From positions 1-64,000 of the IMG/VR virus record IMGVR_UViG_3300025098_000019: a stretch of 64,000 bases of DNA. One strand, given 5' to 3'. The notes under the pieces are model-generated. The model ran no database searches. It was not told the DNA's origin and saw only the letters and a list, made by a program, of their open reading frames with translations. This DNA comes from a virus. The position numbers were made by a program, and so were the translations under genes. This document shows positions 3,885-46,498 of the stretch, one piece after another. Positions within the stretch are counted from its first letter, which is position 1, and each line of letters opens with the position of its first letter.

Positions 3885-3907
3885 TTTTATATTTCATATC
3901 TCTTATT

Positions 3908-3935: not shown

Positions 3936-3936
3936 T

Positions 3937-23186: not shown

Positions 23187-23218
23187 TTAAGTGTCCTCAA
23201 TAATGTATCTTGTACTGT

Positions 23219-23226
23219 ATTTATTC
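23219..23226 (-). promoter_or_regulatory. Late-promoter-like box AATAAATA
   Basis: On the minus strand AATAAATAC, one mismatch from the T4 late consensus TATAAATA. It lies 32 bases upstream of the ATG at 23186, almost the same distance as for the perfect box ahead of the large fibre gene, and leaves a leader containing GAGGA. Confidence 0.5.
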
Positions 23227-23232
23227 TTTTCT

Positions 23233-25074: not shown

Positions 25075-25086
25075 TAGTTCTTATCC

Positions 25087-27186: not shown

Positions 27187-27806
27187 TATGAATTACCCCC
27201 GCTTAAACTCTGCACTCTTACAGTGTAGTCTACTTGAATAAGTCTATTCAAACTCTTTTGTACAGGATGGAAGATAACATGTGTTAGTAGCTGGCCGTCG
27301 CCTAAAACGCCTGACAAATTTGCGCTTCTTAAACCAAGTTCATCAAATACATATAATGCATTTTCGTCTGATGCTGTATCAAATGCATCCTGACCGTTTG
27401 GTTCGCCGTAATCTAATAAACACGTAACTAGTATATCTGTATAATTAGTACCACTAATATGTCTAGTTTCTATCTTATTTCTTGTAGGATCAGTATTATC
27501 AGCATTTCTATCATCTACAACCTTCGTAAATGTTTGATTGTATAACCCAGCGTTTGTTCCTGTTGTGTTTGGTGTCAAGTATGTAATAATACCTGTTGGA
27601 TCAACATTTGTTCCTCCGTTACCAAAGCTCATTTCTGCAATTGGCCCTTGGCCTGCATTACCTAAACTTTCTGCTAGTGCAATACTCATATTTTCATAGT
27701 GTATTGCGTTCTTTTTATCTACAAGGACTTCCCCCGTTTCCGGGTTATGAATTTTTATGTGTCCTTGGACAAATACTCCGTTGTTTTCATTTATCATGTT
27801 TGTCAT
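27186..27806 (-). CDS. Small virion structural protein of the fibre/baseplate region
   Basis: 206 residues, not recognised by name. It starts with an HIKIHNPETGEVLVDKKNAIHYENM segment, beta-rich with a helix (ALAESLGNAG), resembling small phage proteins that join fibres to the baseplate. Between the giant protein and the fibre array, it occupies the position of a wedge-tip or fibre-connector gene. AGGA lies seven bases before the ATG, and an AATAAATA box is 19 bases upstream. Confidence 0.78.
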   Translation of the reverse strand: MTNMINENNGVFVQGHIKIHNPETGEVLVDKKNAIHYENMSIALAESLGNAGQGPIAEMSFGNGGTNVDPTGIITYLTPNTTGTNAGLYNQTFTKVVDDRNADNTDPTRNKIETRHISGTNYTDILVTCLLDYGEPNGQDAFDTASDENALYVFDELGLRSANLSGVLGDGQLLTHVIFHPVQKSLNRLIQVDYTVRVQSLSGGNS

Positions 27807-27824: not shown

Positions 27825-27832
27825 TATTTATT
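27825..27832 (-). promoter_or_regulatory. Late-promoter-like box AATAAATA
   Basis: Minus-strand AATAAATAT, one mismatch from TATAAATA, overlapping the last codon and stop of the giant gene. The expected transcript start leaves a leader of about 12 bases with AGGA before the ATG at 27806. It could drive separate late expression of the fibre genes. Confidence 0.45.
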
Positions 27833-30800
27833 TCGGTAGTTCACTTATGCTCTTACGCAAGAACCTGCCAATGTCATTTTCTGCATCTTTTAGTGGAGTA
27901 CCTGTTTCGCTCCACAATTTACCAATTTTTCTAACTACTGCTATCTTCTGCCCTTCATCTAACGGCGTTGTTAATACTAGTACACTATTAACTACTGTAA
28001 ACTCAGGCGGTATTGTTATGTCTCCAGCTGGACTATCTAATGCTACAGTAGGATCAAAAGATTTAATTTCTGTTTTACGCAATCTTTTGCCTGCTGCAAA
28101 TACTTCAAATTCGTCAACCCCTCTGGTTGGAGTAAAGTCTAATACAAACTGTTTTTGCTGATCAGCAGCAACATAGTTAGTAGTTACAATTTCATCCCTA
28201 TACGGCATATTTTTGTTAATACCCATGGCATATACTGGCGTTCCTACATCGTATATATCTCCTGCGCCGGTACCGTGGGTCGATCTTCGAAGCTGTCGCA
28301 ATGTGTTTCCACTTATTGCAAAATATTCAATACGTTCCTTGTTAATCCAAAGTACTCCTGGCTGGTTTAACTTCTTGTTTGGATTCTGTAAACCAACTGT
28401 ACTATTTACATATACTCGTAAATCGTTACTTTGTAAAGGCTCTGTTAAATAAATTCCTTCTGCTGTATCAAAACGTTTATAATGTGTTCTATTAAGAATA
28501 TCTTTAAACTGTTTCCATGCAATAGTTGGAGTTGATGCCGGTGCTGCAAAATGTATTATGTCAATATCTTGTCCTTTCTCCAGCGTATTATTTAACTGAA
28601 TTAGTAATGGAGTAACTAGTTTATAGTCAACATTTGGTGTTAATAATTGTCCAGATACAGCTATCCATACATATTGTGCATCAATTGCTGGAGCATTTAA
28701 TAAAACTTTACCAGCAGTTAAATTGTTGTATCTATCTGTTTCGTCACCTGGTACTAGTGTTAATGGAATCTCAATATCATACGAAGTTCTGTGTATTTCT
28801 ATAATATCATGATTGCTAAATTGCATTACTTGAACTTTTGTACCAGCATATAAGTCTTGCTCAACAACTAATTGGTTGCCTTCAATAGTATAAGATCCAT
28901 TCTCTAAGAATATTTCAATTTTGTCGCCTTCATTTAATAGTCCTGCTAGGAAATTAATACTACTGCTACCTGTTGCAACTGTAAATGATTCATTTCTTGT
29001 AAGTTTATTACCGTTTAGATAAACAAAAACATCAGTAATGTCTATACTAGAATACGGAACTTGGAATGTTTCTAAGGAGTAATTTAACAATGTATCATCT
29101 TCTACAATATATACTTTTTGGTATCCTGGACGCTGTACTACATTATCTATTATGACTACTGTAAAGAAGGACTGTGGATCTTTATATATCGGTGTCTGCG
29201 ATAATGTAAATTCCTTTTGCAAAGTAGAAGCAACATACGAGTCTCTAACTACTCTGCTGTAGTTTTGTTCTTCTCTGTTTGAATATATTTCATAATCTAA
29301 TACGTTACCTGCTGACGGAATATTAGGATTGAATAAAAACTCAACAAATCCGTTGTCGCTTTCTCTAGAAATAACTTCTAATTCTTTAGTTACTGCGCCA
29401 TTATACCTAGTATAAATTTGTAAAATATCTGTCCATGGTATTGCAGTTTCGTATACTATACTAGTGCCATCTGTAATAAGTTGGTCTATACTGATAATAT
29501 CTTTTCCGCTTACTCCAACTGTAATAATGTTTAATCTGTTATTTGCTACAAATGCTTCATTAAATGTAATAGTTAGATTGATATAATCTAATGTATATTC
29601 TGAAGAATTAATAATTTCGTCATTAACTTTAACAATAACTGCATCATCGCTACTAGGAGTAACTCCTATATTAAATGTGCTGTCGCCTTCATTTGTTATA
29701 AATGTTTGATTATATATTTGTCCGTTACCTGAGCCAATTCTTTCGTATACTGTTAAATCAACCGTATCTAATACTTGTCCCGGAACTAACTCTTCCGGTC
29801 CTCCTGAATTATTCGAAGTAACAAATAAGTCACCATCGATAACAATATCTTCTGCTTTTACACCAGATGCATTTCCTATGAAATCACCACCTATTAATTG
29901 TGTATCGTAACTAGCAGCATCAGGTAAGAAAGAACCATCTGATGAAACTTTTCTTACAATAAATCTATCTCCAGGCATACCGTCAACTTCGTAGTCAGCT
30001 AAGTTAATTAAAACTTGCGAACCGTTACCAGTAAGACTTGGCATTACAGCATTTGGGTTTGATGGATTTGCCGGATAATCAGCATCATCAATTCTAATGC
30101 CATTTTTATAAATGTTATAAACTATGCCGTTTTCTAATGGAGTGTCTAGTTCAATAACAGTAGTCGATCCATCAGCAACAAATAACTGGTCTTCATAAGT
30201 GTTGTCATAGGTATCCCAAGTTGATGTATACCACTCGTCTGTATCCCAGCCTGCTGGACCATCAAAGTCAAAGCTACGAACTTCAACTCCGCCGTAGTCA
30301 ACACCTGACATTAATTGTCCTAAATCAACACCTGGCATACCTTCAGTTGGGAAGTATCTATGCTTAATTCTATCTTGTGCAGAAAGCATCGCTGGATCTT
30401 TAAAGTATTCAACTCTTATTACTGCATCTAATGCTGGAGGTTTTGCAAATACTATTTGTCCTAGTTGTCTAGTATAAGAGATATCAGTATTATCTACATT
30501 TAGATATGTATAATCATTACGTAAAGATTTTTCATCATCAACAAAAACTTGTATCTTATTATTTCTAAGATCCATTGGCCATTTTAGATCAAACTTTGTT
30601 TTTGCGCCTGTACCAGTAAATTGTTGTGTTTCTGGTAAGTCGACTACAAAGTAATCACCTGACACTCTATCAAATTTTACATCAACATGCATTGATCTTA
30701 CTACAGTATCGCCTATTACTGCATTTAATGATCCTTCTCTGCCGCCATTAGCAATTGATCCTGCTACAATTATACGTGGCGCACTTAGATATCCGGTGCC

Positions 30801-33800
30801 TGGATCAACTACTTCTACTGATCTAATTTTGCCAGCACCTATATACGCTCTTGCTTTTGCGCCTGTGCCGCCACCGCCAACGAATGTAATTGTTGGTGTT
30901 GAAGTATACCCTTCGCCAGCATCAAATATGTTAACTGCTGTTAGCTTAAAGCCAACATTGTCTTTCCAATTTTTATCAGGATATTCATCAAACCTGTCAT
31001 CATAAACTGTTAGTTCGTCGTCAATAACAGTAACTCTTGCAGGAACAATTGATTTGCTATCTTCATTATAATATGGAGGAACATCAAAATCTGATACTAA
31101 AGTATTTGTATTATCGACCTTTTGATAAGCACTTAAATATTCTCTAACACTAGTTGAATAAGGCTTTACCTCATTAATATAATCATTATAGCTAGGTAAA
31201 CTGTCATTCTGATAAGTTATCTTTTGCTCTAACTCACCTACATTATGTTTTGCTTTTACAAAACTAGTTTTAAATACCCAGTCTACATTTAGCTGTTCGC
31301 TTAATACATATCGTACACTTGCAAAGAATAGTTTGTTATAATGAACTGCTAAGTTATCAACAAATATATTATCTTTAAGAGCAGTTAAAATATCTCTAGT
31401 TTCTTGAACTGGCTCAGTGTCATAAAAGTTTCCATCAAACGGATAATTATCATATCCAACAAAGTTAGTATTTTTACTGTACAGCTTCTTACTAAATTGT
31501 ATAGTACCATTTTCTCTACCAATAGTTTCATAATCAAAAGTATAATCTCTGTTTCCACTATTGCCAATCTTTTTAAGTAATAACCAACCTGCTGAACCGA
31601 TATTTTTTATTTTGATGATATCATTAATATCATCATCTAGTCCATATAATTGATAGCTTTCTTCTACTAAGAAATCTATTTGTGTAAATTGATTATATCC
31701 TTCTGCATACCAATTAGCATAATCCCAATATGCAGACGTATCGTAACTTTGTACTTGCTTACGTTTCCACGGTACAACAGTGTCAGTATTATCGTAATTA
31801 TAAATTGCCCATCTACCATCTATAGTAGAGTCTGACTGTACTAATACACTCAACGGTCTAACTATAATTAATGTATCTGCATCATAATTTTTACCATGAT
31901 TAATAATATTAACTTTAGTAATTTGACCCAGGTTATTAATAATAATATCTAATTCAAGGCCGGTACCTGATCCAATTACTTCGTAATCTGGGCCTGCTCT
32001 ATTAGCACTAGTTAATGGATCAAATGTCAAGTCGTTGTATCCACGTCCTGAGTTTTGTATTGCTACCCTTCTAACAGTACCGTTTTCTGCAATAACTGGT
32101 GTAAGTATTGCTGTTTCAACTTTTGCAGTGCCTAAAAATTGTAAGTCTAATTCAGTATCTACAATTCTGTCATATAAGCGTGATGTTACTAATGGTACGT
32201 CTTCTTTTCTAGAAAGTATGCTGAGATCAAAATCATCTACAACAATGTTTTCTTGAAGTACAATATTAGCACGTTCAATTACTTCTTTTAATGCTTCTGC
32301 TCTGTTAACAAACCATGACTGGCGCGGTTTAAATAATGTTCCGTACTTTTGTTTCTGAGGAAGTGTCATATCAGGAACTTCTCTGCCCCTGTCGTCATAT
32401 CCTACAAGACTGTGTATCCACTTACGTTCAAGGTCTGCTTTTGGTACACTTGTTTCAAGTCCTTCGGATAATATTTGGTATTCAAAATGTATATTTTTTA
32501 ATTCGCTGTCTGATGTATAATACCCTATATTAAGAGCAATGTCTTTGTCTGATATAAGAGATTCGCAATTAAATAGTGCAAATTTATTGTTACTTAATAA
32601 TGTCACGTAACGATAACCCTGACCACGTGGATCAGCAATTAGTCTTGAAACATCTAATGCTGTCTTTGATCTATTTTCTCTTGTTGGAAGAGTAAATTTA
32701 TCTTTAACCCAGAAGTAATACTTTTCGTTAAATGCACTTGTTTCCTTATCATATACTAATTTAACAGAGTATGCATCGTCACCATATTTACTTAGACCAC
32801 TTATACCTCGTTCTAAACCAGTTGCCGATGATGATATACTGTCCCATTCGCTTGGAATAAGATCGCTTTCAACCCACTCGTAAATATCAATACTATAGTC
32901 TTGAACTAGTGTGTTCCAATTATTAGCCTGTGTTATAGAATCTCCGTGATATGCATCTTTAAATCTTGCTGTGCTTAAATCCCACCATAACTGACCAACA
33001 TACTTGTTTTCCCAATTATTTGTTTCACTAAAGAATTCAGGTAAGTTAGTAGCATTATATCTTGCTAAATCAATATATGACTTCCACGATATTTCTTGAT
33101 CTACTTCACCGAGTATTTTACCTTGTACAGGATCAACAAAATCTAAGTATGTTACTAATTGATTAGTTTTTACATTATACAAAAATGCATGTTTTATCTT
33201 TTTAACATCAACAACATCTACAGGATTCCTAAGAACTGTCCATGCATGTGTGCCTTTTTCCATTACATAATCTAAGAATGATCCAGGATTAGTTGCTTCT
33301 GGTCCAACTGTTGGGTTTGTAGGCAATCCAATATAAACATTGTTTTGATTTAGTAGAAGAGATCTTGCAAATCTAGATCCGCCATCAACATTACTGTTAC
33401 CAACATATTCTAATTGTTCTGCTTGTAACCAATGTCCGTCAATATCTTGATATAATGTAACGCTGCCGCTATTAACGTGATCTGATAAGAAAGATGTAAA
33501 TCCGTCGTCAAACGTTGTTGGAGTTCTTTCATTACTATCTTCATCTAATACATACGAATTTAACGATATTGGATCTTGGTATCTGTCGAAGCGTGTTTCA
33601 ACTTTAATGTTACCGTTGAAACTTGATACACCAATATACTCGTCTGTTATAGACACTGCATATCCAAACTGATCAGCAAGCTCAGTGCCTGGTCCTGATA
33701 TTGTTTGTTTCAACGTAAAGTGAGGTGCAGTGTCAAGTGTATAAATGTATGCTTTACCTGTGTCAAATCCATCTTCATCATTTCCAGGTTCACCAACAAC

Positions 33801-36800
33801 TAAAACGTGTCCAGTTGTACTTAAATCAATTGAACTTCCCCAATTAGTATTTGAAGTGGGTGCAACAATTTCTTGATGGAACACATATCTAGTGTCTTGT
33901 AGTCTGTAAATTAAAATCTTATTATCTTCATCAACCGAAGTATCAGTTTCAGCACTAACTGCTATTACTTCACCGTTTTTACTTACTGCTAAGTCTTTAG
34001 TAAAGTCAATAACTGTTTCGCCTAAGTCATCAAATAGTGCGTCTGGGTCACTACCATTACTATACAAAGGATGATCATTTGGAACATGGCTTAGATAATT
34101 TATTCTGTTGTTTAATGGTTGCCACTTGTTACTAGTAGTTGGCGAGCCTGTTGAAAATGTTCTTGCTTGATATAACTGATAGTTGTCAACTACAATTTCA
34201 TTTATTAAGTAACTGGCTGTTACTGACCATGCACCTCTATATCTTTTATCTTTATCAAGTGCATATTCGTATGTTACGCCGTCATCGTCAGTACCATGTT
34301 TTAATAGATATACTTTATCTTTTGAACCTACAAATATTCTATATAATTCATTTGTTTGTGCTATTGCTACTTTTTGTCCAACACGCTGACCAACGCCGCC
34401 TGTTGCACTACCAGGTATTGAATAAGTGTCAACATAAGACCATTGAGAGTCGAATCTTTTATATATTGTGTATACACCTTGATTAGCAATAGAATTAATT
34501 GTTCCAGTATTATTAACTGGTGCGTTGTAAACAATTACCCAATCATTGTTAAGTATTGACGGAATACTAGCTGGTAAATCTCTGCCTTCCTCGGTCAATG
34601 TTTCTTGGTAAATCCAATATTCTTTATTTGCATAAGCAAAAACATCTAAACTTGAAAATTGAGTTAACCCGCCATAACTATTTGGATTAATTGGGAAGTT
34701 TGATCCGCTTGGATGATTAAGTACTACTAGTTTTCCTGTAATAGAGTTAAACGTTGATACATTTTGTATTTCACCCATTCTACGCTGATTTGGTGAACCA
34801 TTTTCTAAAGTATTAAGTACAATAGAATTTCCTGAACTAAAAATTTTGTTTGCGCTTTTATTTTTAATATATACACGAGCTTTGTTTACATCTCTGTTTA
34901 GATAATAAGCAACTTCAGCCGTTGCTCCAGTAAATGCATCTTCAATAATATCACCTGGAATAGGTTCAAAGAAATCTTGGAACTGACCGTCACCGTCTGT
35001 ATCAACACCAACTGGTTGTCTGTCAATTTGAATAAAATCAATCCAGCCATCCCACATATCTTGTACTTCGTGTGTTTGACTATTAATTTGCTCAATTAAT
35101 CCAGGGTCTTGTAAGCCAACTAAACTAAAATCATATGACGGATTTTGCTTGTCTATATAAAGTCTAACATTAGTACCTACAGTTGTTTGCGCTTCTATTT
35201 CTTTTGGAAGTCTAACAATCCAACGAGTGTCAAAGAAATTTGTAGCACTAGTATTATATTCTATACCAGTATGTGACAATACAGAAATATATGCAAGATA
35301 CTTGTCTGTATTTGTAGGATAAACAGTATCTAAACTATTAATATAATAGTTAGGCTCTCTAGGATCTTCACTAGTAATTAAATCTTGATATACTAGACCA
35401 TATGCTGGTGTTCCAAAATCAGTTAATGCACTAAATTCGTTTGCATTAATATACTCTGCTGTTTGTACTTTCCAAAAACCACCTAAGTGTGATAAAGGTT
35501 TAAAACTAGGTTGTGTATATTGTCCAATTACGTCTTCTCTACCGTTTCTAAGTTCGTCAGTTTCTATTAATACACCATTAGTATCTTTAATGTAAAGTAG
35601 AAGTTTATCTTGTTCGATGAATACTGACGCAACTGTTCCAGCGCCTTCGTTAGTTATAACAGTATCACCTACAGACGGTGGATTATTAAATGCTGTTAGA
35701 TATAACACATAATCAATTTTTTCTAAAATTTCATGTTTGCCGTTGTTTGAAAATCCATTGTCAATAAAGTCTGAATTAGGAATTACATTAACGCCATCGT
35801 TTAAATCATTTAACCCATTTGGCCAAACTTCAATAGCTTCGCCTTCTGCTATTTGTCTATTTAAGTTAGTGTACTTGTTCCATTTTAAAACAATATTATC
35901 TGTAACTTTAGAAGCACGATATTGATCAAACGGTGCTCTAATTAATATATGGTCAACTGTTTTATTTGCAAAATACGGCTGTCCTTGCAATAGTAGCGTA
36001 ATGTCATTAATGTATGATAATCCTGCATTAGTTGCTGCTATTTCAGTAAATGCATAACTGTCAAATGTGCTATACTCTAGTGTTACTTCAGCAGCAGGTA
36101 CATTTCTTACTGCTCTCCAAAAGTTTTCTTGATAAGAAACCATGTCAAGTTGAGAATAGTTAGTATTAGCGTTCCATTCACCTTGGAAAGTTTCGCTTAT
36201 GTTACTTGCGCTTGGTGATCCTACTACTAATAGTTTACCGTCTGGTGATAAAGCAATACTTTCGCCAAATGCTTGACGATCATTCATTGGTGCTACATCA
36301 GTATCAGGCTTTAATATATCTAATAGTTTAAATTCACTTTTATAAGTTGGACGTTGCCAAACTTCAACTACACCATTATTAGATTTTGAATTTGCTATTG
36401 CAACATTTAAGTTTTCGTTAGATGCAGCAATATCGTTACCATAAGAATTATCTATTGACGATTCAGTATCTTGAGTGTAGTATTCGTTAAAGTCTAAGAA
36501 ACTTTCTTTCTTTTGTAAAACAGACCACTGATTGTCAGTACCGTCAATCCATAATTTTTGATTGTGTGATAAATCTTTTTCAATGATTGAATTTGCAGTT
36601 TGTATATTACTAGAACGAACACTTCTTAAACGGGTTAAGTAACCATTGCCTTCTCCAGTTTCAATATCTTGTACAGTTTGTGTTATACCTGTACGTACAT
36701 CGAGCTGGTTGTTACGTACTGCTTTAATTTCATAAAATCCGTCATTACCTCTGCCCAAGTTTCTAACACCAATAATGTCTCCTGGTAAGAAATGTGCAGC

Positions 36801-39800
36801 TTTTTTAATTGTTATAGTTGCTAATGGTGTTGCATTTATAAATTCACCATCTGCTTCTTCAGCAAAGCCTTGTATACCAATTACTTTATCACCTGAAACT
36901 ACATGTTGTAATATATCCCAATCTTCGTTTTTGCCAGTTACCCAAATATATTCATCAGAACTAATTCTATTAACATCTGCTGTGAGCATATCTTTAACAT
37001 CTGCTACAGTATATGTAATATCATCTTCGTTAACATATCCAGAATCTATAATTTCCTTATAATAGTCTTTTACTGTTGGAAACGGTTTGTGATTATAGTC
37101 TAATGGTTTTGAATTTACCTGATACGGTAAAATTTTAATTGATAAATCTACATCATTAATCGCTTTTGAATTTACTAGCTCTACAGTTTGTGGTTGAACT
37201 CTAAATTCATTTTCATCAATAATGTATTCAACTTCTTCGTAACTATCAACAGCACCATATTGCCCTACTCTAAGAGCCCATTCTTCGTAAAATTCTAAAC
37301 TATCAGTATCGTCACTACCTAGTGCATCAAACAGTTTTGTTAATGCATTTGGTGTTCCTTTGTCTTGTATAAATCCTTGATAAAATTTGTACTGACTAAC
37401 ATCATCATTAATGATGTTTGAAAGGTATTGTCTTTTTTGGTAACCAATTAAATGTTGTGCATGTTTTTGTTGTTCAACATCAAAGTTGTCGCTATCTAAA
37501 TCATAAAAATCAGCAAACTGTATTGATCTATAATCAAAGTTAGGAAGTAGTCTTGGCGTTGGTCTTTTATCTAGTCTTTCCCAATCTTGTGGTACAAAGT
37601 TTTCAACACCTTTTAGATCTATTTTTGCAACATAATAAAATTCTTTATATTTGACCAAAGCACCTACATCATAATCTTGCCATTGTTCCCACTCAGTTAC
37701 TATTGCTTCGTCGTAAATAAATCCTGGAATATTTAATCCGCCAGTCCATTCGTCACTTCTATATCCAATAACTTTTATTCGCTCTTGTCTATACCCTGCT
37801 GGACGATCAAAAATTACATCATTAAACACAGTTTCGTTGTCTAACAAAATAACATGTTCTATTTGCACTAATGGCAAACGAACTCCGTAAATTCCGTCCT
37901 CTGAGTTTTTAACTTCAAGACCAAATTGGTTTTCAGAATCTCTAGCAATAGAAGTAAAGTTGCGTTCTAATAGTTTTCCATCAGCTTTTACTAAACTATA
38001 ATTATAAAACTTATCAAAAATATCATCAACAACTGCATATTCTTTATAGAACTTAAATTGTTGTGCGCCAGGTGATAAAGTAAGTACACTACCAGCTGAC
38101 CAGTTTTGTGTAGTCCAGAACATAAGCTCTTTTACACTATATGTCCAATCTTCAATTACACCAGTTTCTTTATTAAAGTAATCAAATACAAACCCTTGGT
38201 CCATTAAATATCTTTCATACCCTAATATAAAGTCTACAAGTTCTTGTACAGTTCTTAAGGTTGTGCCATAAGGGTAGTTTTTTACTACGTTAGTAAAATT
38301 ACGTCTTAATATTGCATCTCTGCCGCCCACTGTTGGCAATGATGATAATTTAGCAAATTTATCTTGGTCAAAGGTTGAGCCACTAACATGACTGCTTATA
38401 CATCTATAATAAAATCCGTCATAACGTACATTAGCTGATTTTACATATTGCTTACTTTCGTTCCAAATAACAAATTCTTCGCTGATGCCGCCAATATTAA
38501 TAACAGGGTCAGTTGACTTAGCACTTGCTTCATAAAAATCAAATGACGCTTTCTGCTTGTCGTAACCTGCTATTGACCAGCCGTTGGGTCTTTTTTCAAC
38601 AATTATACCACTAAGTACAGCAGTATCAATTGGAGCACTTTTATTTAAAATTATCTGATAGTTTTCTTCTGGTACAAAAACATTGCCTTCATTTAAAGGA
38701 GTTCTTGAATCTAATATAAGTTTAAACTTTTCTTTTTCTGTGAAGCCGCCTACTTTAATAGCAAGTTTATTGTCAATCGACGCTATACTCTGTGTATATT
38801 TTTTCCATGTAACATCAATATTTGTTGCTAAGAAGTTGTAAATGTAATTTACTAATCCACTACTTAACACACGGGTGTTATCATTATATGTGTTTGGAAA
38901 TACTAAGTCAGTAGTTCTAATTGGAGTATTACTTTCGGTGTATACCAAATGTCCTACTAAGTTACGCTTAATTCTTGATATGTCATAACCAAGGCCCATT
39001 AGTTTTGCAGGCTGATTTAACATCCATGATGTAATTAATGCAAACGGATATTCTGAACTTTGTCTCCATGCTGTTTCTATTGGGCTGTGATCGCCGAATG
39101 TAAACTGGCTTCTAGTTTTTATTTGTACATAATTTTTAGCATAGTCGCTAGTTAATGGATCAACTAAGTTTCCTTCAGCGTCAACAGGTAAGTGATTTAA
39201 CAACCCAGGACGTACATACTTTGAGTTAACAATAGTTTGTGCATTAGGATCTCTAATTATTCCTTGCTGTAAATCTTCCCACATTACAAAGTTTGAATTA
39301 GTATATGGTGCTGGACCATACACTTCGCTCCACCACTGTGGTTCAATTGTAAGTCCTAACATTTCCCACGGATGTGTATGTGGGCGGTCAGTATCAAATG
39401 CTTCTTTATAAACTCCTCTCCAAAAACCCGGTAATGACTGGTCTTGTGGTGAACTCATTGCTGAGAAGTTAAATGTAAATTTATTTGTTTGTGACCAAAA
39501 ATCTATATTGGAATAATCAAGGCCGCCTGCAATGTCATTCCATTCTACAAAATCAGCTGACATTGCACTATTAATTTGTTGTCTTGTAAATCCTGTATCT
39601 CTATTAGTACCACTAACAAATTCGTTAATATCTAAAATATCTGTATTATACTTTTGTTTAATATTATTAAATATTCTTTTTTCAAAATCTAATATTAAGT
39701 CATCTCTATAATCGCCATATGCAACTACAATGCTGCCGTCGTGTCCTTGAATAACTTCTCTATTAATTGCTGTTGTAGTATCTGTATATTTTTTAGGATG

Positions 39801-42800
39801 GTATGCAGGATATAATCCTAACTTAGTTGGCGTAGCAGGAATAAAACATCCGTCAGTAGTTTCGTACTCGTAAAGATCAATTTCGTCACCGTTGTTCAAT
39901 TCAACTTTAATATTAACAAAACCTTCATCAGTAAACACATATTCTTTTTCATGTGTTAATTGTATTCCGTTAACGTACACTAGTACTGCCTTTGCACTCA
40001 ATGCATCTAAATTAAAATATTCTGATAATGCAAAAAACTTACTAGAGCTAGGTAATACTTTATATGATATTCTATTGTCTGCTTTATATGCAAGCATGTC
40101 AGAGAAGTAAAACGGCATACCTTCTGATTTTTCAGAATTTATTTTTTGTAGTACTTTGTCTACATGTACTTTAACAGGACCGTCAAAACCCAAAGTTGAT
40201 GCAGTTTGTATAAACTGTCTTTTAAATTTAGCATATTCATTTTTAGAATATCTAAGAGCTTTAACAATATTTGCATCTTTATCAACGATATGGAATAATG
40301 GTAAGTTAATTGGACCACTGTGCTTTAAAAATCTTCTGCCATATTGATCAATATCTCCGTAGTCTCTTAACGGATGCTGTTCTAAGTCAATTAAATTTTC
40401 TTGTATTGTGTTAACGTGATCAAGAACTTCACCTAACGTAAATTCTTTTGGATTTTCGTTTAACGGATTTCGTTCAAAGTTACTTGCCATTTCATAGTAG
40501 GCATTACCATTTATAATTGCTTCGCTGCTATAGAGTTTAATAACAATATTATCGTCTACATTTAATGTTTTTTCAAATGTTAACTCTCTGTCTTTGTTAA
40601 TGCTATAGTCTGTAGTAATATCATTATTAACAAATACTGCAATGCTTTCATGTATATTTTTAAAAACACTTACATTAAATGATTCATTATCTACGCCTTC
40701 GGCAATATATTGTAATATTGCTGCTTGCTCACTATTTTTATTAGCTTTAGTCCAACCATTTTGGTATGTAAACTCTGTAGGTGAATTAAACTTCTTTAAG
40801 AATCCAGCTTCTAAATTATATGTTAAAATTTCATTATCTAAATTATACTGAACAGTTTCTGTAATTAACGGAAACTCAAAAAGTATATCACCTAAATTTT
40901 CTATATTTTTGTAAGATAACCCAAAGCCTAACTCTTTGTCATTTGCTTCTACTTCGCTAACTTTATAAGAGAATATTTTAGTTCCTCTAAATGTAGAATC
41001 TGGATATTGAATAACATCTGAAAAACTTGATCCGTCATGGTCAAACAAATCAAATAATGGTTGTTGATTTGTCTGCGTTTTGTCCTGTGCTAAGTGCCAG
41101 TTAGTGCCGTTAAAATAATATATCAACCCAGAATTACTACCGTTTTTAATTAAAACAGTTTCGTCTAACATTGGATTAGTATCTTTTGCTTCAACTAAAC
41201 TAATAATATTATTATTGTCAAACTTAATAAAGTTAACTTCATATATTTTATTATTTGCTCGAACATCAGTATCTGTTGTAACTAGAATACGCATTCCGTT
41301 TGATAACGGTACACCATCAATGCTATAACCTGTGGCGCCTTCAATAGTGCTGAATATATCTGTTGTTACAGTGTCAATTAAATCAACATCATGTTTTGAA
41401 TTAATTCCGTAGCCGAATAACTTTAGTCCTGCTTCAAATTCAATAATAGGTCTAGAAGCTCGCTCGCTCAGGTCAACTACAGGTTGCTGATTATTGTAAA
41501 ACGCACTTTTCTCAATTACGTCTTTGTGAAACCATCTATTATATCTAGTCCAAGCATTTCTATCTAAACTTGCTCTATTAATAATAATATAATCTTTAGT
41601 TCCGGCGTATGCACTTGCATTACCAAAAGGTCTTCTATCAAAAGGTTCAGAATCAAAAGGTACAAATACATCGCCTGTGTATGCTGCTGGTATAACTAAG
41701 TTTCTTTCATCAATAAGTTTAATTGAATCTCCAACACCTTCAACATAATATTCGCTGTTTGCATATTCACTTGGTGTTACATTTCCAAGGAAACTAACTT
41801 TGAGTCCATTAGTAAGCTCTACGCCATTAGCACTTTTATAATAACGCTTTTCAAGTATATCGTTAATATCAATACTTGTATTTTCAACAATATCAAATAC
41901 TTTGATATAACCACTTGTGTTAATATTAGTGCTACTAACATAATATAAATTTTCTGGCGAATTAAACGGAACTGTAAATTCTATAGTTCCTTCTTCGACG
42001 TTTATAGGTAAAATTTCATTGTTATTAACATCGTATGCTTTTATTCCATCAACATATCGATTACTAACATTAGTTGCATTATTATATGTACTTGTTACTT
42101 CAACTCTTACATTTGGTGCACCACCGTCGCCTAGGTCTGCATCAAAGAATGTAATTACTTCTCCTGAAGTAAAGTTTTCGCCACCTTCAATAACGCTTAC
42201 ACTACTAACAACTCCGTCTGCAGAAATAATAACTTCAAACTTTGCAAATTTACCGTTTTCAGTTGAAACATAATCAGTAATTTCGTATGTACCAGGAACT
42301 CTTAAACTATTCTTTGATGTTCTAATATTAGTAGATTTAATTTCACCATTCGAAGGTGTTACTACTACATAATTACCGTCTGAATCTTGAGATAATTTAA
42401 AGTCAGCATCGTTAAATTTTCTATTTGTTGTAAAAGATATTGGATGGCCTTTGCAACGAATTTTAAATCTATATGTCTGTCCTTTATAAAGTGTTAATGT
42501 TGGGTTAGCATCAAACGCAGGAGGATCAAATTTGTATACTGTATTATCATCTTGTACTTCAGTAGTAACAGTATATTCACTTTGTTCAGTGTCATTTCTT
42601 CCAAATACATTTACAGTCTGCGGACCGTTTGGCATCCAGTAGTAATCTCTAAAGTTTACAAACTTATCCCAATCAATATTTGGATTCCAAGCATAAAACT
42701 CTTGTCCTGACAGCAAACTTTGATTTGAAATGTCACCGTTTAAATTTTTAATTTGATTAACATAATCGGAATAGTCACCGTAAAAGTTAACATTATTTAA

Positions 42801-43076
42801 ATTGTCGGTAATAACTGTAGATGATTCAAATTGTCTGTTTTGTCGCTGGGTGCTTACATCTTCAATATAAGTATCGCTGGCCCTATAAGCCTTTGCAGTT
42901 GTTCTTCCAACATACCCCGAAACCTTTTCTGCTGTTCCTGGTTGAAATAATTGATCAATTGTACTTGATAATATTTTTTCGTTAGTGTCAGTTCTAAAAT
43001 ACTTAGGTAAAAGGTCTACGCTTTTTCTTTTTGAATTGTCACCTGTTGGTAGAGCTGCGTCTTCTTTATTTGCCAT
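27828..43076 (-). CDS. Giant 5082-residue virion protein (gp7/gp8 position, putative baseplate or fibre)
   Basis: 5082 residues, roughly 560 kDa, uninterrupted. It follows gp6 and precedes the fibres, the place of T4 gp7-gp8. Residues 1-120 contain LPKYFRTDTNEK and FYAWNPNIDWDKF segments and may anchor it. Four copies of a carbohydrate-binding CBM5/12-like pattern (W...Y..G..V.Y....Y.A) lie near residues 1536, 1795, 2296 and 2948. FG-GAP-type propeller repeats (LLVVGSPSAS, HVLVVGEPGNDEDG, FGYAVSITDEYIGV) lie at about 2215-2290 and 3020-3210. Glycine-rich turns such as IFDAGEGYTS and VVDPGTGYLS recur around 3980-4120. An AAGGA site precedes the ATG. It probably combines wedge and adhesin roles; no direct proof. 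Confidence 0.9.
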   Translation of the reverse strand: MANKEDAALPTGDNSKRKSVDLLPKYFRTDTNEKILSSTIDQLFQPGTAEKVSGYVGRTTAKAYRASDTYIEDVSTQRQNRQFESSTVITDNLNNVNFYGDYSDYVNQIKNLNGDISNQSLLSGQEFYAWNPNIDWDKFVNFRDYYWMPNGPQTVNVFGRNDTEQSEYTVTTEVQDDNTVYKFDPPAFDANPTLTLYKGQTYRFKIRCKGHPISFTTNRKFNDADFKLSQDSDGNYVVVTPSNGEIKSTNIRTSKNSLRVPGTYEITDYVSTENGKFAKFEVIISADGVVSSVSVIEGGENFTSGEVITFFDADLGDGGAPNVRVEVTSTYNNATNVSNRYVDGIKAYDVNNNEILPINVEEGTIEFTVPFNSPENLYYVSSTNINTSGYIKVFDIVENTSIDINDILEKRYYKSANGVELTNGLKVSFLGNVTPSEYANSEYYVEGVGDSIKLIDERNLVIPAAYTGDVFVPFDSEPFDRRPFGNASAYAGTKDYIIINRASLDRNAWTRYNRWFHKDVIEKSAFYNNQQPVVDLSERASRPIIEFEAGLKLFGYGINSKHDVDLIDTVTTDIFSTIEGATGYSIDGVPLSNGMRILVTTDTDVRANNKIYEVNFIKFDNNNIISLVEAKDTNPMLDETVLIKNGSNSGLIYYFNGTNWHLAQDKTQTNQQPLFDLFDHDGSSFSDVIQYPDSTFRGTKIFSYKVSEVEANDKELGFGLSYKNIENLGDILFEFPLITETVQYNLDNEILTYNLEAGFLKKFNSPTEFTYQNGWTKANKNSEQAAILQYIAEGVDNESFNVSVFKNIHESIAVFVNNDITTDYSINKDRELTFEKTLNVDDNIVIKLYSSEAIINGNAYYEMASNFERNPLNENPKEFTLGEVLDHVNTIQENLIDLEQHPLRDYGDIDQYGRRFLKHSGPINLPLFHIVDKDANIVKALRYSKNEYAKFKRQFIQTASTLGFDGPVKVHVDKVLQKINSEKSEGMPFYFSDMLAYKADNRISYKVLPSSSKFFALSEYFNLDALSAKAVLVYVNGIQLTHEKEYVFTDEGFVNIKVELNNGDEIDLYEYETTDGCFIPATPTKLGLYPAYHPKKYTDTTTAINREVIQGHDGSIVVAYGDYRDDLILDFEKRIFNNIKQKYNTDILDINEFVSGTNRDTGFTRQQINSAMSADFVEWNDIAGGLDYSNIDFWSQTNKFTFNFSAMSSPQDQSLPGFWRGVYKEAFDTDRPHTHPWEMLGLTIEPQWWSEVYGPAPYTNSNFVMWEDLQQGIIRDPNAQTIVNSKYVRPGLLNHLPVDAEGNLVDPLTSDYAKNYVQIKTRSQFTFGDHSPIETAWRQSSEYPFALITSWMLNQPAKLMGLGYDISRIKRNLVGHLVYTESNTPIRTTDLVFPNTYNDNTRVLSSGLVNYIYNFLATNIDVTWKKYTQSIASIDNKLAIKVGGFTEKEKFKLILDSRTPLNEGNVFVPEENYQIILNKSAPIDTAVLSGIIVEKRPNGWSIAGYDKQKASFDFYEASAKSTDPVINIGGISEEFVIWNESKQYVKSANVRYDGFYYRCISSHVSGSTFDQDKFAKLSSLPTVGGRDAILRRNFTNVVKNYPYGTTLRTVQELVDFILGYERYLMDQGFVFDYFNKETGVIEDWTYSVKELMFWTTQNWSAGSVLTLSPGAQQFKFYKEYAVVDDIFDKFYNYSLVKADGKLLERNFTSIARDSENQFGLEVKNSEDGIYGVRLPLVQIEHVILLDNETVFNDVIFDRPAGYRQERIKVIGYRSDEWTGGLNIPGFIYDEAIVTEWEQWQDYDVGALVKYKEFYYVAKIDLKGVENFVPQDWERLDKRPTPRLLPNFDYRSIQFADFYDLDSDNFDVEQQKHAQHLIGYQKRQYLSNIINDDVSQYKFYQGFIQDKGTPNALTKLFDALGSDDTDSLEFYEEWALRVGQYGAVDSYEEVEYIIDENEFRVQPQTVELVNSKAINDVDLSIKILPYQVNSKPLDYNHKPFPTVKDYYKEIIDSGYVNEDDITYTVADVKDMLTADVNRISSDEYIWVTGKNEDWDILQHVVSGDKVIGIQGFAEEADGEFINATPLATITIKKAAHFLPGDIIGVRNLGRGNDGFYEIKAVRNNQLDVRTGITQTVQDIETGEGNGYLTRLRSVRSSNIQTANSIIEKDLSHNQKLWIDGTDNQWSVLQKKESFLDFNEYYTQDTESSIDNSYGNDIAASNENLNVAIANSKSNNGVVEVWQRPTYKSEFKLLDILKPDTDVAPMNDRQAFGESIALSPDGKLLVVGSPSASNISETFQGEWNANTNYSQLDMVSYQENFWRAVRNVPAAEVTLEYSTFDSYAFTEIAATNAGLSYINDITLLLQGQPYFANKTVDHILIRAPFDQYRASKVTDNIVLKWNKYTNLNRQIAEGEAIEVWPNGLNDLNDGVNVIPNSDFIDNGFSNNGKHEILEKIDYVLYLTAFNNPPSVGDTVITNEGAGTVASVFIEQDKLLLYIKDTNGVLIETDELRNGREDVIGQYTQPSFKPLSHLGGFWKVQTAEYINANEFSALTDFGTPAYGLVYQDLITSEDPREPNYYINSLDTVYPTNTDKYLAYISVLSHTGIEYNTSATNFFDTRWIVRLPKEIEAQTTVGTNVRLYIDKQNPSYDFSLVGLQDPGLIEQINSQTHEVQDMWDGWIDFIQIDRQPVGVDTDGDGQFQDFFEPIPGDIIEDAFTGATAEVAYYLNRDVNKARVYIKNKSANKIFSSGNSIVLNTLENGSPNQRRMGEIQNVSTFNSITGKLVVLNHPSGSNFPINPNSYGGLTQFSSLDVFAYANKEYWIYQETLTEEGRDLPASIPSILNNDWVIVYNAPVNNTGTINSIANQGVYTIYKRFDSQWSYVDTYSIPGSATGGVGQRVGQKVAIAQTNELYRIFVGSKDKVYLLKHGTDDDGVTYEYALDKDKRYRGAWSVTASYLINEIVVDNYQLYQARTFSTGSPTTSNKWQPLNNRINYLSHVPNDHPLYSNGSDPDALFDDLGETVIDFTKDLAVSKNGEVIAVSAETDTSVDEDNKILIYRLQDTRYVFHQEIVAPTSNTNWGSSIDLSTTGHVLVVGEPGNDEDGFDTGKAYIYTLDTAPHFTLKQTISGPGTELADQFGYAVSITDEYIGVSSFNGNIKVETRFDRYQDPISLNSYVLDEDSNERTPTTFDDGFTSFLSDHVNSGSVTLYQDIDGHWLQAEQLEYVGNSNVDGGSRFARSLLLNQNNVYIGLPTNPTVGPEATNPGSFLDYVMEKGTHAWTVLRNPVDVVDVKKIKHAFLYNVKTNQLVTYLDFVDPVQGKILGEVDQEISWKSYIDLARYNATNLPEFFSETNNWENKYVGQLWWDLSTARFKDAYHGDSITQANNWNTLVQDYSIDIYEWVESDLIPSEWDSISSSATGLERGISGLSKYGDDAYSVKLVYDKETSAFNEKYYFWVKDKFTLPTRENRSKTALDVSRLIADPRGQGYRYVTLLSNNKFALFNCESLISDKDIALNIGYYTSDSELKNIHFEYQILSEGLETSVPKADLERKWIHSLVGYDDRGREVPDMTLPQKQKYGTLFKPRQSWFVNRAEALKEVIERANIVLQENIVVDDFDLSILSRKEDVPLVTSRLYDRIVDTELDLQFLGTAKVETAILTPVIAENGTVRRVAIQNSGRGYNDLTFDPLTSANRAGPDYEVIGSGTGLELDIIINNLGQITKVNIINHGKNYDADTLIIVRPLSVLVQSDSTIDGRWAIYNYDNTDTVVPWKRKQVQSYDTSAYWDYANWYAEGYNQFTQIDFLVEESYQLYGLDDDINDIIKIKNIGSAGWLLLKKIGNSGNRDYTFDYETIGRENGTIQFSKKLYSKNTNFVGYDNYPFDGNFYDTEPVQETRDILTALKDNIFVDNLAVHYNKLFFASVRYVLSEQLNVDWVFKTSFVKAKHNVGELEQKITYQNDSLPSYNDYINEVKPYSTSVREYLSAYQKVDNTNTLVSDFDVPPYYNEDSKSIVPARVTVIDDELTVYDDRFDEYPDKNWKDNVGFKLTAVNIFDAGEGYTSTPTITFVGGGGTGAKARAYIGAGKIRSVEVVDPGTGYLSAPRIIVAGSIANGGREGSLNAVIGDTVVRSMHVDVKFDRVSGDYFVVDLPETQQFTGTGAKTKFDLKWPMDLRNNKIQVFVDDEKSLRNDYTYLNVDNTDISYTRQLGQIVFAKPPALDAVIRVEYFKDPAMLSAQDRIKHRYFPTEGMPGVDLGQLMSGVDYGGVEVRSFDFDGPAGWDTDEWYTSTWDTYDNTYEDQLFVADGSTTVIELDTPLENGIVYNIYKNGIRIDDADYPANPSNPNAVMPSLTGNGSQVLINLADYEVDGMPGDRFIVRKVSSDGSFLPDAASYDTQLIGGDFIGNASGVKAEDIVIDGDLFVTSNNSGGPEELVPGQVLDTVDLTVYERIGSGNGQIYNQTFITNEGDSTFNIGVTPSSDDAVIVKVNDEIINSSEYTLDYINLTITFNEAFVANNRLNIITVGVSGKDIISIDQLITDGTSIVYETAIPWTDILQIYTRYNGAVTKELEVISRESDNGFVEFLFNPNIPSAGNVLDYEIYSNREEQNYSRVVRDSYVASTLQKEFTLSQTPIYKDPQSFFTVVIIDNVVQRPGYQKVYIVEDDTLLNYSLETFQVPYSSIDITDVFVYLNGNKLTRNESFTVATGSSSINFLAGLLNEGDKIEIFLENGSYTIEGNQLVVEQDLYAGTKVQVMQFSNHDIIEIHRTSYDIEIPLTLVPGDETDRYNNLTAGKVLLNAPAIDAQYVWIAVSGQLLTPNVDYKLVTPLLIQLNNTLEKGQDIDIIHFAAPASTPTIAWKQFKDILNRTHYKRFDTAEGIYLTEPLQSNDLRVYVNSTVGLQNPNKKLNQPGVLWINKERIEYFAISGNTLRQLRRSTHGTGAGDIYDVGTPVYAMGINKNMPYRDEIVTTNYVAADQQKQFVLDFTPTRGVDEFEVFAAGKRLRKTEIKSFDPTVALDSPAGDITIPPEFTVVNSVLVLTTPLDEGQKIAVVRKIGKLWSETGTPLKDAENDIGRFLRKSISELPK

Positions 43077-43090
43077 TACTAAATAATTCC

Positions 43091-46000
43091 TTAACTACTC
43101 TGCAAACCAATGTTTTGCGTGTTTGTTGCTGTAACTACAGTGCCGGTTGACGACAAACGACTTGCTGTAACTTCAGTTATAATATCAATCTCTGCAACTG
43201 ATGCAGAATTAATGAAAATTTCATCTGATTCTGAACGTATCTCAAACAAGCTACCAAATGATTGTGTTACTTGTTTTGGAACAATAACAAAAGTTACTAG
43301 GTCCGGTGACAGTCTGTTCATTACATATGTTGCTAGTTCTTGGAAATAAAACGTATCTCCAAAGTCCCAATTTTCTAGCGAAAAGTATTGATTTATTGCT
43401 TCAATAGTACGAGTTTTAAGATCACTGTCATTAATAACTTGATCAGGATTTTTAACTATTTTAAATACTGCTTGTAAATCACTTGTTGCTTCTGAGCCAA
43501 ATAATGGCTTGTATTTTACAGGATGATAAATTACTTCATCACTGATAGATTTTATTTTATTAAGTGACGATCCGTAACTTCTAAATAACTCATCAGGTGA
43601 CGGCGGAAGCGGTGCTGTTGGAAGCTGGCCGTCTAAGTACAATCTATAACTTCTATCATAATTTTTAGTTAACATAAACACATCAATTAAGTTACTAGCA
43701 CTAGGATCAATCCTAGCATTATAGTCTGCAACATGTACATAATGGAATTTTAAATTTGCACGACCATTAAATGCTCTATATCCTGCAACAGGTTCTTTTT
43801 TTGGAATACTAGCATTAACTACTCTAAAAAAGTCGCCTTCTTTAAAATACAATATTGTTCCGTCAGTATAAGAACTTATTGGCTGTTCTAAGTTATTGCT
43901 GTCTATTACTTCAATGTTGTTTGCAGCATAATCGATATATCTATAATCTTCTGTTCCTGCTTCTGTTCTGTATTTTTCTAAAATTACAGTTTGGTCAGTG
44001 CTAACTAATTCTGTAAATATCTGTGGATCGTCAATTACTCCATCTTCGTCTGCATCTTTAAATGTAACTTCAATTTTAGTACTGTCAACGTATCCTTCAG
44101 CATCTCTATATTCTTGCATTACTTCCCATGAATAATCTTGGGTGTATGCTTGTGTTGAATTGGGCTGTGTGTTAATGCTTAAAACTGATATTTTATCTTT
44201 AAGTACTTGTCCAGTTTTTGAATCATAAATTTTATCGCTGCTGTCATAATAGAATCTAATTTCTTCATCGCTTTCAAAAACGTAGCGCAATCCTCTATAA
44301 GTTATAGTATATGTTTCACCGTTAGTTTCAAACAAAATTAACCAACTAGAATCAATATTTGAATTTGTCTTATCACCAGCAAATGAGTTACTAAAGTTAT
44401 TAATTTTATTTAAATTAGTTGCCTTAATAACACGCCATGTTTGTGTGTTAATATCATATCGTAAACCAAAATCATTATACGCAAAAATTTGATCAATCAT
44501 TTCAATCTTAACGTCATCTAATAAACTATTAGCAAGACGTGGTTTAATTTCTACTAAGTTAGATCCTTCTGGAATTTTATCAGCAAGTGCAATTGGTCCT
44601 GTTGTAGTTGACAAATTAGTTGTTAAACCGTTTCCTGCAACTGCAAGAACCTTTGTCCATATGTATTGTTTAACTCCATAATTGCTAGAGTTGTTTACAT
44701 CAATTAATTCATTGTTAGAAGTAAATGCATAGCCTGCTGGCGGTTGGAATTTTACAGAAGTGCCTGCTTCAACATATCGCAATGTATTAGATGTAAACGT
44801 GCCTACATTAAATCCTTGCTGATCAGAATCTTCAAAAAATCCTGTATATGTATTAGTATGATTGCTAACTGACTTCCATTTAACCCCTAAATCTAAAGTT
44901 AAAATCTTAGAAAACTTATCTAAGTAAAAATGCTTTATACGTCTATTATCTAAAATAGGCTCTAGGTTATTAATTATAACGCCTTCGATATCAGTTTGTG
45001 TTTGGAATGTAAAACTTGTTTTGTCTGTTGTATATTCTTTATATATTATGCCATCATTGCCGTATAAATTAGTACTAGAATACTTTCCTGTTGAGTCAAT
45101 CAAATCAAAGTATCTTGATATACCGCTTGATATTCTGTTTACACTCTTAACTTTAATAATGTCTTGACTAACTCCTAATGGAGCAACATTATAATCTTCT
45201 CCAGTAATCATTCTATTCTGTGTATAGTATGTTGCAGGAGCATTTTGCTTAATGCTTAGATTTGATTCACTTGCTGCACTATTAGATACAGAATATTGTA
45301 AAGACATTGTTAATGTAAGTTCTTGTACTTTACCTGTTTTACTCAAATACGGTATGTTTATAGAGATATTTGTTAATGCAGCTGGAGAAATAACCATTCC
45401 TCTATTTTCACTTACTCTATAATAAGTACGGAATGTACCTTTTGGTAAACTTCCAAAAACACCATCTGAAAATATAAGATTAATTCTATCATCAATTCTT
45501 GTTAAAACACTGTAAATGTCTCTGATCTTCTTATTAAGACTGTTGTATATAACGTTGTTGCCTTCAACTGCGTCTACCTTTGTCCAAGAATCCACTTCAT
45601 TATTATTAGAATCTAATTTGTAAAGCCAAACATCTGAGTCGTTAATGTTAGTAGCATCAATTGCTACAGTTTGATTAGGAACAGGTTGTGTAATTGAGAA
45701 CTGACCGTTTTCTAAACGCCCTTGTCTAAAGTGTGCAAAGAAACCGGAGTTAGAACTGCCAGCACCTTGTGCATCATCTCTATATAAAAACGCAAAGTTG
45801 TTTCCAGGAATTGGTGGTTCTTCTTGTATGTTGCCATCGTCTATATCTGTTGACACAATTTCAAAACCAGTACTTTTACCTTCAACTGGCTTTTCAAAAC
45901 TAAACACAGGAACATCTGTGTTAACACCGTTAACTCTATATTGTTCTGTTGCTACTCCGCCTACCATTTCTTTTTTGTTTGGTCGACCAAACACACCGTT

Positions 46001-46498
46001 AACTGGAAGTGCTGTGTTTAATACCTTAACAAACTGTTCATACCAATTAGTATTAGTGCTGTCGTTCCATAATATAGTTTGACCTTGCAAGTTTCTACCA
46101 TTTGAATCAATAACGTCTTCAGTTGTACTAACACTAGTGATTTTTAGTAAGCCGTTTGCTGCTTGATTTCTACGAGGATTATAATTAAGTAAACGTGCTA
46201 AACGGAGAACACTTTCTCTACGCTCTGCAAGTTCTAAAAAGTTTTCTCTAGCATTTAGGTCAATACGGAAAGCAAGGTTTTGACCTAAGAAAGCAATCAA
46301 GTCAATTAGTGCTAGATATTCGCTTGATTCTATATAGTCGTTAAAATCCTCAGGATAATTAGTCCTAAGGTAGTTGATCATTGTTCGACGTAAATTGTCA
46401 AAGTCGTATGATTGAAAATCTGCGTTGCGGAAGGTTTGGTATACACGCTTCCAATCTTCTGCAACTAGTAATCTATTCTGTCTATCTGTCGCTGACAT
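43091..46498 (-). CDS. gp6: Baseplate wedge subunit gp6-like
   Basis: 1135 residues, longer than T4 gp6 (about 660). The N-terminus has the family signature: FDNLRRTMINYLRTNYPE, YIESSEYLALIDLIAFLGQN, FRIDLNARENFL and a RRESVLRLARLLNY helix. The C-terminus has a wedge-type end (TIEAINQYF, DTFYFQELATYVMNRL). gp6 dimerises to form the inner baseplate ring. Most of the extra length is beta-rich central insertion (about 250-900). GAGGA precedes the ATG, and an AATAAATAC box is at 46519-46526. The gene follows gp25 as in T4-like phages. Confidence 0.93.
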   Translation of the reverse strand: MSATDRQNRLLVAEDWKRVYQTFRNADFQSYDFDNLRRTMINYLRTNYPEDFNDYIESSEYLALIDLIAFLGQNLAFRIDLNARENFLELAERRESVLRLARLLNYNPRRNQAANGLLKITSVSTTEDVIDSNGRNLQGQTILWNDSTNTNWYEQFVKVLNTALPVNGVFGRPNKKEMVGGVATEQYRVNGVNTDVPVFSFEKPVEGKSTGFEIVSTDIDDGNIQEEPPIPGNNFAFLYRDDAQGAGSSNSGFFAHFRQGRLENGQFSITQPVPNQTVAIDATNINDSDVWLYKLDSNNNEVDSWTKVDAVEGNNVIYNSLNKKIRDIYSVLTRIDDRINLIFSDGVFGSLPKGTFRTYYRVSENRGMVISPAALTNISINIPYLSKTGKVQELTLTMSLQYSVSNSAASESNLSIKQNAPATYYTQNRMITGEDYNVAPLGVSQDIIKVKSVNRISSGISRYFDLIDSTGKYSSTNLYGNDGIIYKEYTTDKTSFTFQTQTDIEGVIINNLEPILDNRRIKHFYLDKFSKILTLDLGVKWKSVSNHTNTYTGFFEDSDQQGFNVGTFTSNTLRYVEAGTSVKFQPPAGYAFTSNNELIDVNNSSNYGVKQYIWTKVLAVAGNGLTTNLSTTTGPIALADKIPEGSNLVEIKPRLANSLLDDVKIEMIDQIFAYNDFGLRYDINTQTWRVIKATNLNKINNFSNSFAGDKTNSNIDSSWLILFETNGETYTITYRGLRYVFESDEEIRFYYDSSDKIYDSKTGQVLKDKISVLSINTQPNSTQAYTQDYSWEVMQEYRDAEGYVDSTKIEVTFKDADEDGVIDDPQIFTELVSTDQTVILEKYRTEAGTEDYRYIDYAANNIEVIDSNNLEQPISSYTDGTILYFKEGDFFRVVNASIPKKEPVAGYRAFNGRANLKFHYVHVADYNARIDPSASNLIDVFMLTKNYDRSYRLYLDGQLPTAPLPPSPDELFRSYGSSLNKIKSISDEVIYHPVKYKPLFGSEATSDLQAVFKIVKNPDQVINDSDLKTRTIEAINQYFSLENWDFGDTFYFQELATYVMNRLSPDLVTFVIVPKQVTQSFGSLFEIRSESDEIFINSASVAEIDIITEVTASRLSSTGTVVTATNTQNIGLQSS

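Follow-up and report, generated by a model that had tools for sequence, protein, structure and literature searches.

Giant virion proteins encoded next to gp6

The closest described relatives of the protein studied here are giant virion proteins of Rak2-type jumbo phages, namely RaK2 ORF070w, PA5oct gp355, CBB_236 and Atu_ph07 gp180, all encoded in the slot directly 3' of the gene for the baseplate wedge protein gp6. CBB_236 is listed as 'Structural protein' in a virion mass-spectrometry table, with figures of 21 and 7.72 (PMC5259590), read here as peptides and percent coverage. PA5oct gp355 is flagged ESI-MS/MS (electrospray ionisation tandem mass spectrometry) in its annotation. In AP-J-162, a 'Structural protein' of 4455 amino acids (aa) adjoins a 1198-aa wedge protein (PMC11242549). 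The family is already known as a structural protein without an assigned role. In phage T4, where the gene order is 6-7-8, the gene directly after gp6 encodes gp7 (phrog_964, 1032 aa). T4 gp7 is described in PMC3004832 as present in six copies and binding gp6, gp8 and gp10.

We analyzed the first 64,000 nucleotides (the window) of the 110,010-base virus record IMGVR_UViG_3300025098_000019. Positions 27828-43076 of the minus strand hold an intact open reading frame (ORF) of 5082 codons with an ATG start, which begins 14 bases past the stop of a gp6-type gene; the plus strand of the same span is interrupted by stops. The predicted product, hereafter the giant, has a mass of 574 kDa and an isoelectric point of 4.6, and matches phrog_10938 over its core (E 4e-250 and 9e-78). 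By sequence it is a member of the phrog_10938/Rak2-type virion protein family. The first-pass annotation, made from the sequence alone, had described a giant structural protein with carbohydrate-binding-like modules and FG-GAP-type repeats at the gp7/gp8 position, perhaps fusing wedge and adhesin functions. The reality of the ORF and its structural nature are borne out, the latter by mass spectrometry of relatives' virions. The interpretation as a whole survives in part: the structural family, the slot and the folds hold, and a sequence relationship to gp7 or gp8 is not supported. We consider it fairly probable that the giant is a peripheral baseplate-wedge protein of a Rak2/PA5oct-type jumbo myophage, acting in the place of gp7 and bearing exposed binding modules.

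Besides the Rak2-type phages (RaK2, PA5oct, Atu_ph07, CBB), the family includes many IMG/VR contigs. At least 599 IMG/VR stretches encode a relative; 80 of these loci were fetched, and the 38 with a full-length ORF were used. These orthologs measure 4625-5609 aa and nine orthologs from phage isolates 3326-4555 aa, making the giant ~530-1760 aa longer than the isolate proteins; the conserved parts align. The tblastn searches, with all matches below 60% identity, reached 60 phage records with the N-terminal half and 89 with the C-terminal one, among them 30 cyanophages by name; the cyanophage rows among the matches listed concern a 60-aa repeat only. Synteny around the giant extends to RaK2, PA5oct, CBB, Munch, PBECO4, Vibrio 2.275.O, Atu_ph07, Phosso and SCTP-2. 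Twelve further loci came from a genome collection, mostly from metagenome-assembled genomes (MAGs), one of them on a 335-kb contig. In a Neomarinimicrobiota MAG (RS350), two contigs, L366 and L377 (335 kb and 153 kb), carry matching copies of the giant, and probably stem from a single jumbo phage whose genome was assembled two times and placed in the MAG bin.

Alignment of the giant with the nine isolate proteins and the 38 marine or other IMG/VR ORFs yields three common core blocks (~aa 1-200, 430-2060 and 3290-4010), in which the Rak2-type proteins are 23-31% identical to the giant per slice, plus one large block that separates core B from core C:

27828..43076, minus strand: giant ORF, 5082 aa, ATG start; phrog_10938 'virion structural protein', E 4e-250
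42477..43076, minus strand: aa 1-200, N-terminal core, conserved; of the loci searched, those of this family alone have it
41787..42476, minus strand: aa 201-430, insert found in some of the marine relatives and almost missing from the nine isolates
36897..41786, minus strand: aa 431-2060, core B, common to all nine jumbo-phage isolates
39843..40082, minus strand: aa 999-1078, beta domain, tail-fibre/adaptor-like by fold search
33297..36506, minus strand: aa 2191-3260, predicted seven-bladed integrin-alpha/FG-GAP-type propeller with long insertions (model, fold and Pfam)
34467..36029, minus strand: aa 2350-2870, block nested inside the propeller, mostly missing from relative L087
31047..33209, minus strand: aa 3290-4010, core C, common to jumbo-phage isolates
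31857..32279, minus strand: aa 3600-3740, GYxxxP-type repeat, E 1e-59 to the 6167-aa protein of S-CAM8
30627..31079, minus strand: aa 4000-4150, GYxxxP-type repeat, E 2e-58
27831..30629, minus strand: aa 4150-5082, C-terminal region of variable length

Both GYxxxP-type repeats are shared with cyanophage baseplate giants. The beta domain of core B is closest to 9k09_U (Z 8.5, root-mean-square deviation (rmsd) 3.0, 76 residues aligned), followed by CBA120 TSP4 (Z 7.9) and T4 gp6 (5iv5_B, Z 5.7).

The propeller region and its carbohydrate-binding-type modules

The AlphaFold model of the propeller region (mean predicted local distance difference test (pLDDT) score 80.4) is aligned best by VIA-align to integrin alphaM (Z 29.8, rmsd 3.2, 346 residues aligned). 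Integrin alpha heads generally score Z 27-30 over ~330-357 aligned residues and WD-type propellers Z 27-28. The seven-bladed propeller fold is firmly predicted by the model; since WD-type propellers score barely below integrin heads, it is the FG-GAP sequence signal that justifies the designation 'integrin type'. FG-GAP_2 (PF14312) matches the C-terminal half of the giant with 25.6 bits (cut-off 23) and is detected in 25 of 27 propeller-block members. The FG-GAP-type repeats of the first-pass annotation are therefore present as a fold, but as blades of one propeller rather than as scattered repeats. Compared with the integrin alpha head, the giant has the same fold at only 12% identity and with large inserts. 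The baseplate receptor-binding protein Gp45 of phi11 also carries a propeller (PMC4901313), but Gp45 is a five-bladed, trimeric siphophage protein, while the propeller of the giant is seven-bladed.

The length of the block (aa 2061-3250) was compared among 37 non-redundant proteins. It is 1190 aa in the giant and ranges from 702 to 1415 aa in the other IMG/VR proteins. Among the isolates, it measures 95-97 aa in RaK2, Munch, CBB and PBECO4, 156 aa in Vibrio 2.275.O, 305 aa in PA5oct, 441 aa in SCTP-2 and 1425-1432 aa in Phosso and Atu_ph07. None of the five inserts of Atu_ph07, Phosso, PA5oct, SCTP-2 and Vibrio 2.275.O has an FG-GAP Pfam match, and a propeller in the long inserts of Atu_ph07 and Phosso is accordingly not supported. 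The nested stretch spans ~520 aa; L087, which lacks most of it, retains the FG-GAP signal and modules 3 and 4 described below, whose starts lie 145 aa apart versus 649 aa in the giant. Mean pairwise identity among 39 proteins (the giant and the 38 orthologs) is 0.55 for core B and 0.35 for the propeller block, the faster evolution of the latter being the behaviour expected of an exposed region.

Four W..Y..V.Y modules of CBM5/12 type (CBM, carbohydrate-binding module) are found in the giant, at aa ~1534, 1791, 2296 and 2945, confirming all four of the patterns noticed initially:

38337..38477, minus strand: module 1, aa 1534-1580; Z 7.0, rmsd 1.3 over 45 residues to a deacetylase COD module
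37563..37706, minus strand: module 2, aa 1791-1838; Z 7.2, rmsd 2.7, 48 residues aligned to 9rkv_M
36057..36191, minus strand: module 3, aa 2296-2340; family hidden Markov model (HMM)
34107..34244, minus strand: module 4, aa 2945-2990; family HMM

Pfam CBM_5_12 (PF02839) matches the N-terminal half of the giant in two stretches with 28.1 bits (cut-off 26.2). Scores are modest and the single modules of the window fall below the cut-off; in the family, matches occur in 24 of 27 propeller-block and 20 of 31 core B members. With an HMM made from these modules and iterated in the family, every one of the 38 IMG/VR proteins shows three to five modules, which almost always occupy the four places seen in the giant. 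The nine isolates show zero to two, and five of them have none; module 1 is present in only three of the nine. The fold partner of module 2, 9rkv_M, is the tail fibre of Agrobacterium phage 7-7-1. Chitinase A1 and chitin-deacetylase modules are similar in sequence to module 1, which places a phenylalanine near the tryptophan of the chitinase A1 chitin-binding domain, a residue that we take to bind chitin. At the level of fold, the carbohydrate-binding-type reading is upheld by the Pfam match and by modules 1 and 2, and slices of the giant do match a CBM fold. Pattern and fold are common to the giant and to CBM5/12 modules (chitinase A1 chitin-binding domain 1ed7; deacetylase COD/DA1 modules), and sugar binding in the giant is putative: from their sequences, the modules may bind glycans and serve as adhesins. 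No description of a propeller or CBM in this giant appears in the titles and abstract openings returned by literature searches, and we regard the clade of the window, with its propeller region and its four modules at fixed places, as a new form of a known family.

Modules of this type also occur elsewhere in these phages. All ten phage records searched have matches, several with many in other ORFs (435-2257 aa). In the record of the window, an ORF of 462 aa lying outside the window (G000:92673-92939) has several CBM5/12 modules, as do ORFs of up to 2257 aa in relatives; the modules apparently form arrays, as in a phage-wide use of the module. A further CBM5/12-type module is found in gp6 of Vibrio phage 2.275.O (L007:7986-11855; E 4e-17 with the module-1 profile).

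The modules and propeller might instead be purely architectural, acting as spacers or docking sites between tail proteins and binding no sugar. The nearly constant positions of the modules in the 38 relatives and the giant, with three to five modules each, the module in a gp6 and the weak Pfam scores of single modules all speak for such a role. With the four positions kept across the marine clade, the modules resemble a fixed architecture no less than a set of host-range cassettes. On the other hand, module 1 aligns to the chitin-binding domain of chitinase A1, with its phenylalanine near the tryptophan, and the propeller region evolves fast. We hold a purely architectural role to be a real possibility, though not the one we would favour.

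The place of gp7 and gp8

The gene of the giant lies directly 3' of gp6 in the window as in the Rak2-type relatives, and gp6, gp25 and gp53 are present in the window. Neither PF09215 (gp8) nor phrog_964 (gp7) was detected in any of ten records (that of the window and the nine isolates), with T4 and S-CAM8 controls found, nor was gp7 or gp8 found in nine more records, which hold marine or MAG relatives (T4 control found); the record of the window and the IMG/VR records may be fragments. With no separate gp7 or gp8 found, no other candidate for the slot after gp6 was recognised. The gp7/gp8 position named in the first-pass annotation holds in the sense of this slot and in no other.

A parallel is provided by the 6167-aa 'baseplate wedge initiator' of cyanophage S-CAM8 (AOV60019), which is also encoded directly after gp6, shares the GYxxxP-type repeats (E 1e-59) and carries a T4 gp7 motif, supporting the placement of a giant in the slot of gp7. 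The window giant differs in having no such motif at a detectable level, and there is no homology between the cores. The S-CAM8 giant lies at L200:8685-27188, and a separate 990-aa 'gp7' is annotated at L092:7627-10599; the latter has no detectable similarity to T4 gp7, and its annotation looks questionable.

Under the proposed wedge role, about six copies per virion would take the place of T4 gp7, and perhaps gp8. The giant would hold gp6, its presumed partner as in the case of T4 gp7, and link it to peripheral fibre proteins. The propeller and CBM-type modules would face outward, either contacting the cell surface or clamping neighbouring tail proteins as the baseplate opens. A virion location is documented for the relatives CBB_236 and PA5oct gp355, and the window giant is placed there by homology.

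Four observations weigh against this proposal. First, hhalign revealed no relationship of the giant to T4 gp7, gp8, gp9, gp10 or gp11 or, repeats apart, to cyanophage 'gp7'. Second, one stretch of core B resembles the KG(T) motif of T4 gp7 by eye only:

37302..37559, minus strand: aa 1840-1925, helical stretch with FYxGxIxxKGT

In a sliding-window control with two gp7-type profiles, the KGT windows ranked 12-14 of 83 and 15-20 of 83. Third, this putative wedge-contact zone has pLDDT <50 in the model of aa 885-2075. Fourth, in none of 31 marine pairs with core identity >0.8 did the propeller block fall below 0.5, as would mark a replaced block; recent host-range swapping is therefore not seen, nor is module swapping among these close relatives.

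For the hhalign comparison, 25 members were added to a T4 gp7 family and six to a cyanophage 'gp7' family. Five slices of the giant gave no match to these beyond the GYxxxP repeats, except that the C-terminal slice weakly matched the cyanophage family (61%). In the positive controls, T4 gp7 was linked with the S-CAM8 giant at 95% and T4 gp8 with cyanophage gp8 at 92%. Two apparent signs of kinship were rejected: a match to the gp8 family phrog_438 was traced to the common GYxxxP-type repeat rather than the gp8 body, and the KG(T) motif at aa 1906 gave 0.2-0.6% with zone profiles, not above background. A fold search of aa 885-2075 against the PDB gave nothing under E 0.001 and no T4 gp7 row among the matches listed. 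The P2 gpI family, considered as a bridge, yielded no profile, the 80 relatives fetched from viral_contigs all being 99-100% identical. The proposed gp7/gp8 relationship is accordingly not detectable by profile comparison. This negative is a weak one, because T4 baseplate kinships mostly escape sequence comparison: PMC3004832 states that, gp6 and gp25 aside, most T4 baseplate proteins show no relationship to P2 and Mu that sequence alone reveals. We conclude that the giant likely works in the place of gp7, with sequence similarity to gp7 itself undetected.

Could the giant nevertheless have arisen by descent as a fusion of T4 gp7 and gp8 and have diverged past recognition? The slot after gp6, the failure to recognise separate gp7 and gp8 genes and the KG(T) motif in a helical stretch would fit, but no profile similarity supports such an origin and the motif does not rise above background, so that we find it unlikely. 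Slightly less likely still is that the giant is mainly a receptor-binding adhesin, which hangs on the baseplate like a fibre, outside the wedge core, and binds host glycans through its propeller and modules. The integrin-type propeller, the CBM5/12 folds, the occurrence of such modules in solved tail proteins (9rkv, 8fqc, 7b5h) and their recurrence in other large ORFs of relatives are in line with this. However, RaK2, Munch, CBB and PBECO4 keep the core and the slot although their propeller region is reduced to ~95 aa, and five of the nine isolates have no detected module: what is constant in the family is not the adhesin part. Finally, an assembly or fusion artefact joining several genes, for which only the extreme length would speak, is refuted by the 38 full-length copies on other contigs, the nine isolate orthologs and the annotated single proteins of this family in sequenced phages.

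Gene neighbourhood and the wedge of Rak2-type phages

In the order of transcription, a gp55-type sigma factor gene (on the opposite strand), a 299-aa virion-type protein, gp53 and a 1223-aa M15-domain protein are followed by the gp5-type hub, gp25, gp6 and the giant, after which come a 206-aa protein and fibre-type proteins:

53072..53374, minus strand: gp53-type wedge protein; PF11246 above its cut-off, phrog_7145
47010..49397, minus strand: gp5-type hub/spike protein; phrog_13211
46551..46997, minus strand: gp25-type wedge protein; PF04965, E 1.6e-8
43091..46498, minus strand: gp6-type baseplate wedge protein, 1135 aa; phrog_10646 and phrog_219, the latter also matched by T4 gp6
27186..27806, minus strand: 206-aa protein directly 3' of the giant; phrog_11259

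The same order, with insertions, is found in PA5oct, RaK2, CBB, Munch and PBECO4, and is partly kept in Atu_ph07, Phosso, SCTP-2 and Vibrio 2.275.O. Five isolates have a gene of similar size (198-201 aa) at or near the place of the 206-aa protein, a likeness of size and position. The 1223-aa protein (49397-53068), which adjoins the hub gene, contains an M15 peptidase domain (PF13539, E 2.2e-15) and, by its sequence, is possibly a virion cell-wall peptidase. Three successive fibre-type proteins (21717-27186) share the N-terminal families phrog_14394/phrog_15511, as if built on one docking domain, and the first contains a tail collar domain (PF07484) as well. Farther along, the window encodes a 1330-aa protein (16345-20337) in which a glycine-rich domain accompanies two DUF285 stretches (E 2.4e-34), and a Radical SAM-type protein (11456-12841; phrog_14086, with a weak QueE-like match).

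Rak2-type jumbo myophages keep gp6, gp25 and gp53, while gp7 and gp8 are unrecognised, and the family of the giant, a very large phage structural protein, is the obvious candidate for this gap. In its boldest form, the proposal is that one ~574-kDa chain replaces both T4 gp7 and gp8, its built-in propeller and four CBM-type modules acting as a glycan sensor coupled covalently to the contraction trigger. We regard this version as speculative and rather improbable; if true, with one chain per wedge, each virion would display ~6 propellers and 24 modules. The clade of the window has the propeller and modules at one fixed place; the cultured relatives RaK2, CBB and PBECO4 retain the core but have next to nothing at that place. 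This contrast, with and without the segment, would offer a natural comparison for receptor sensing built into the wedge.

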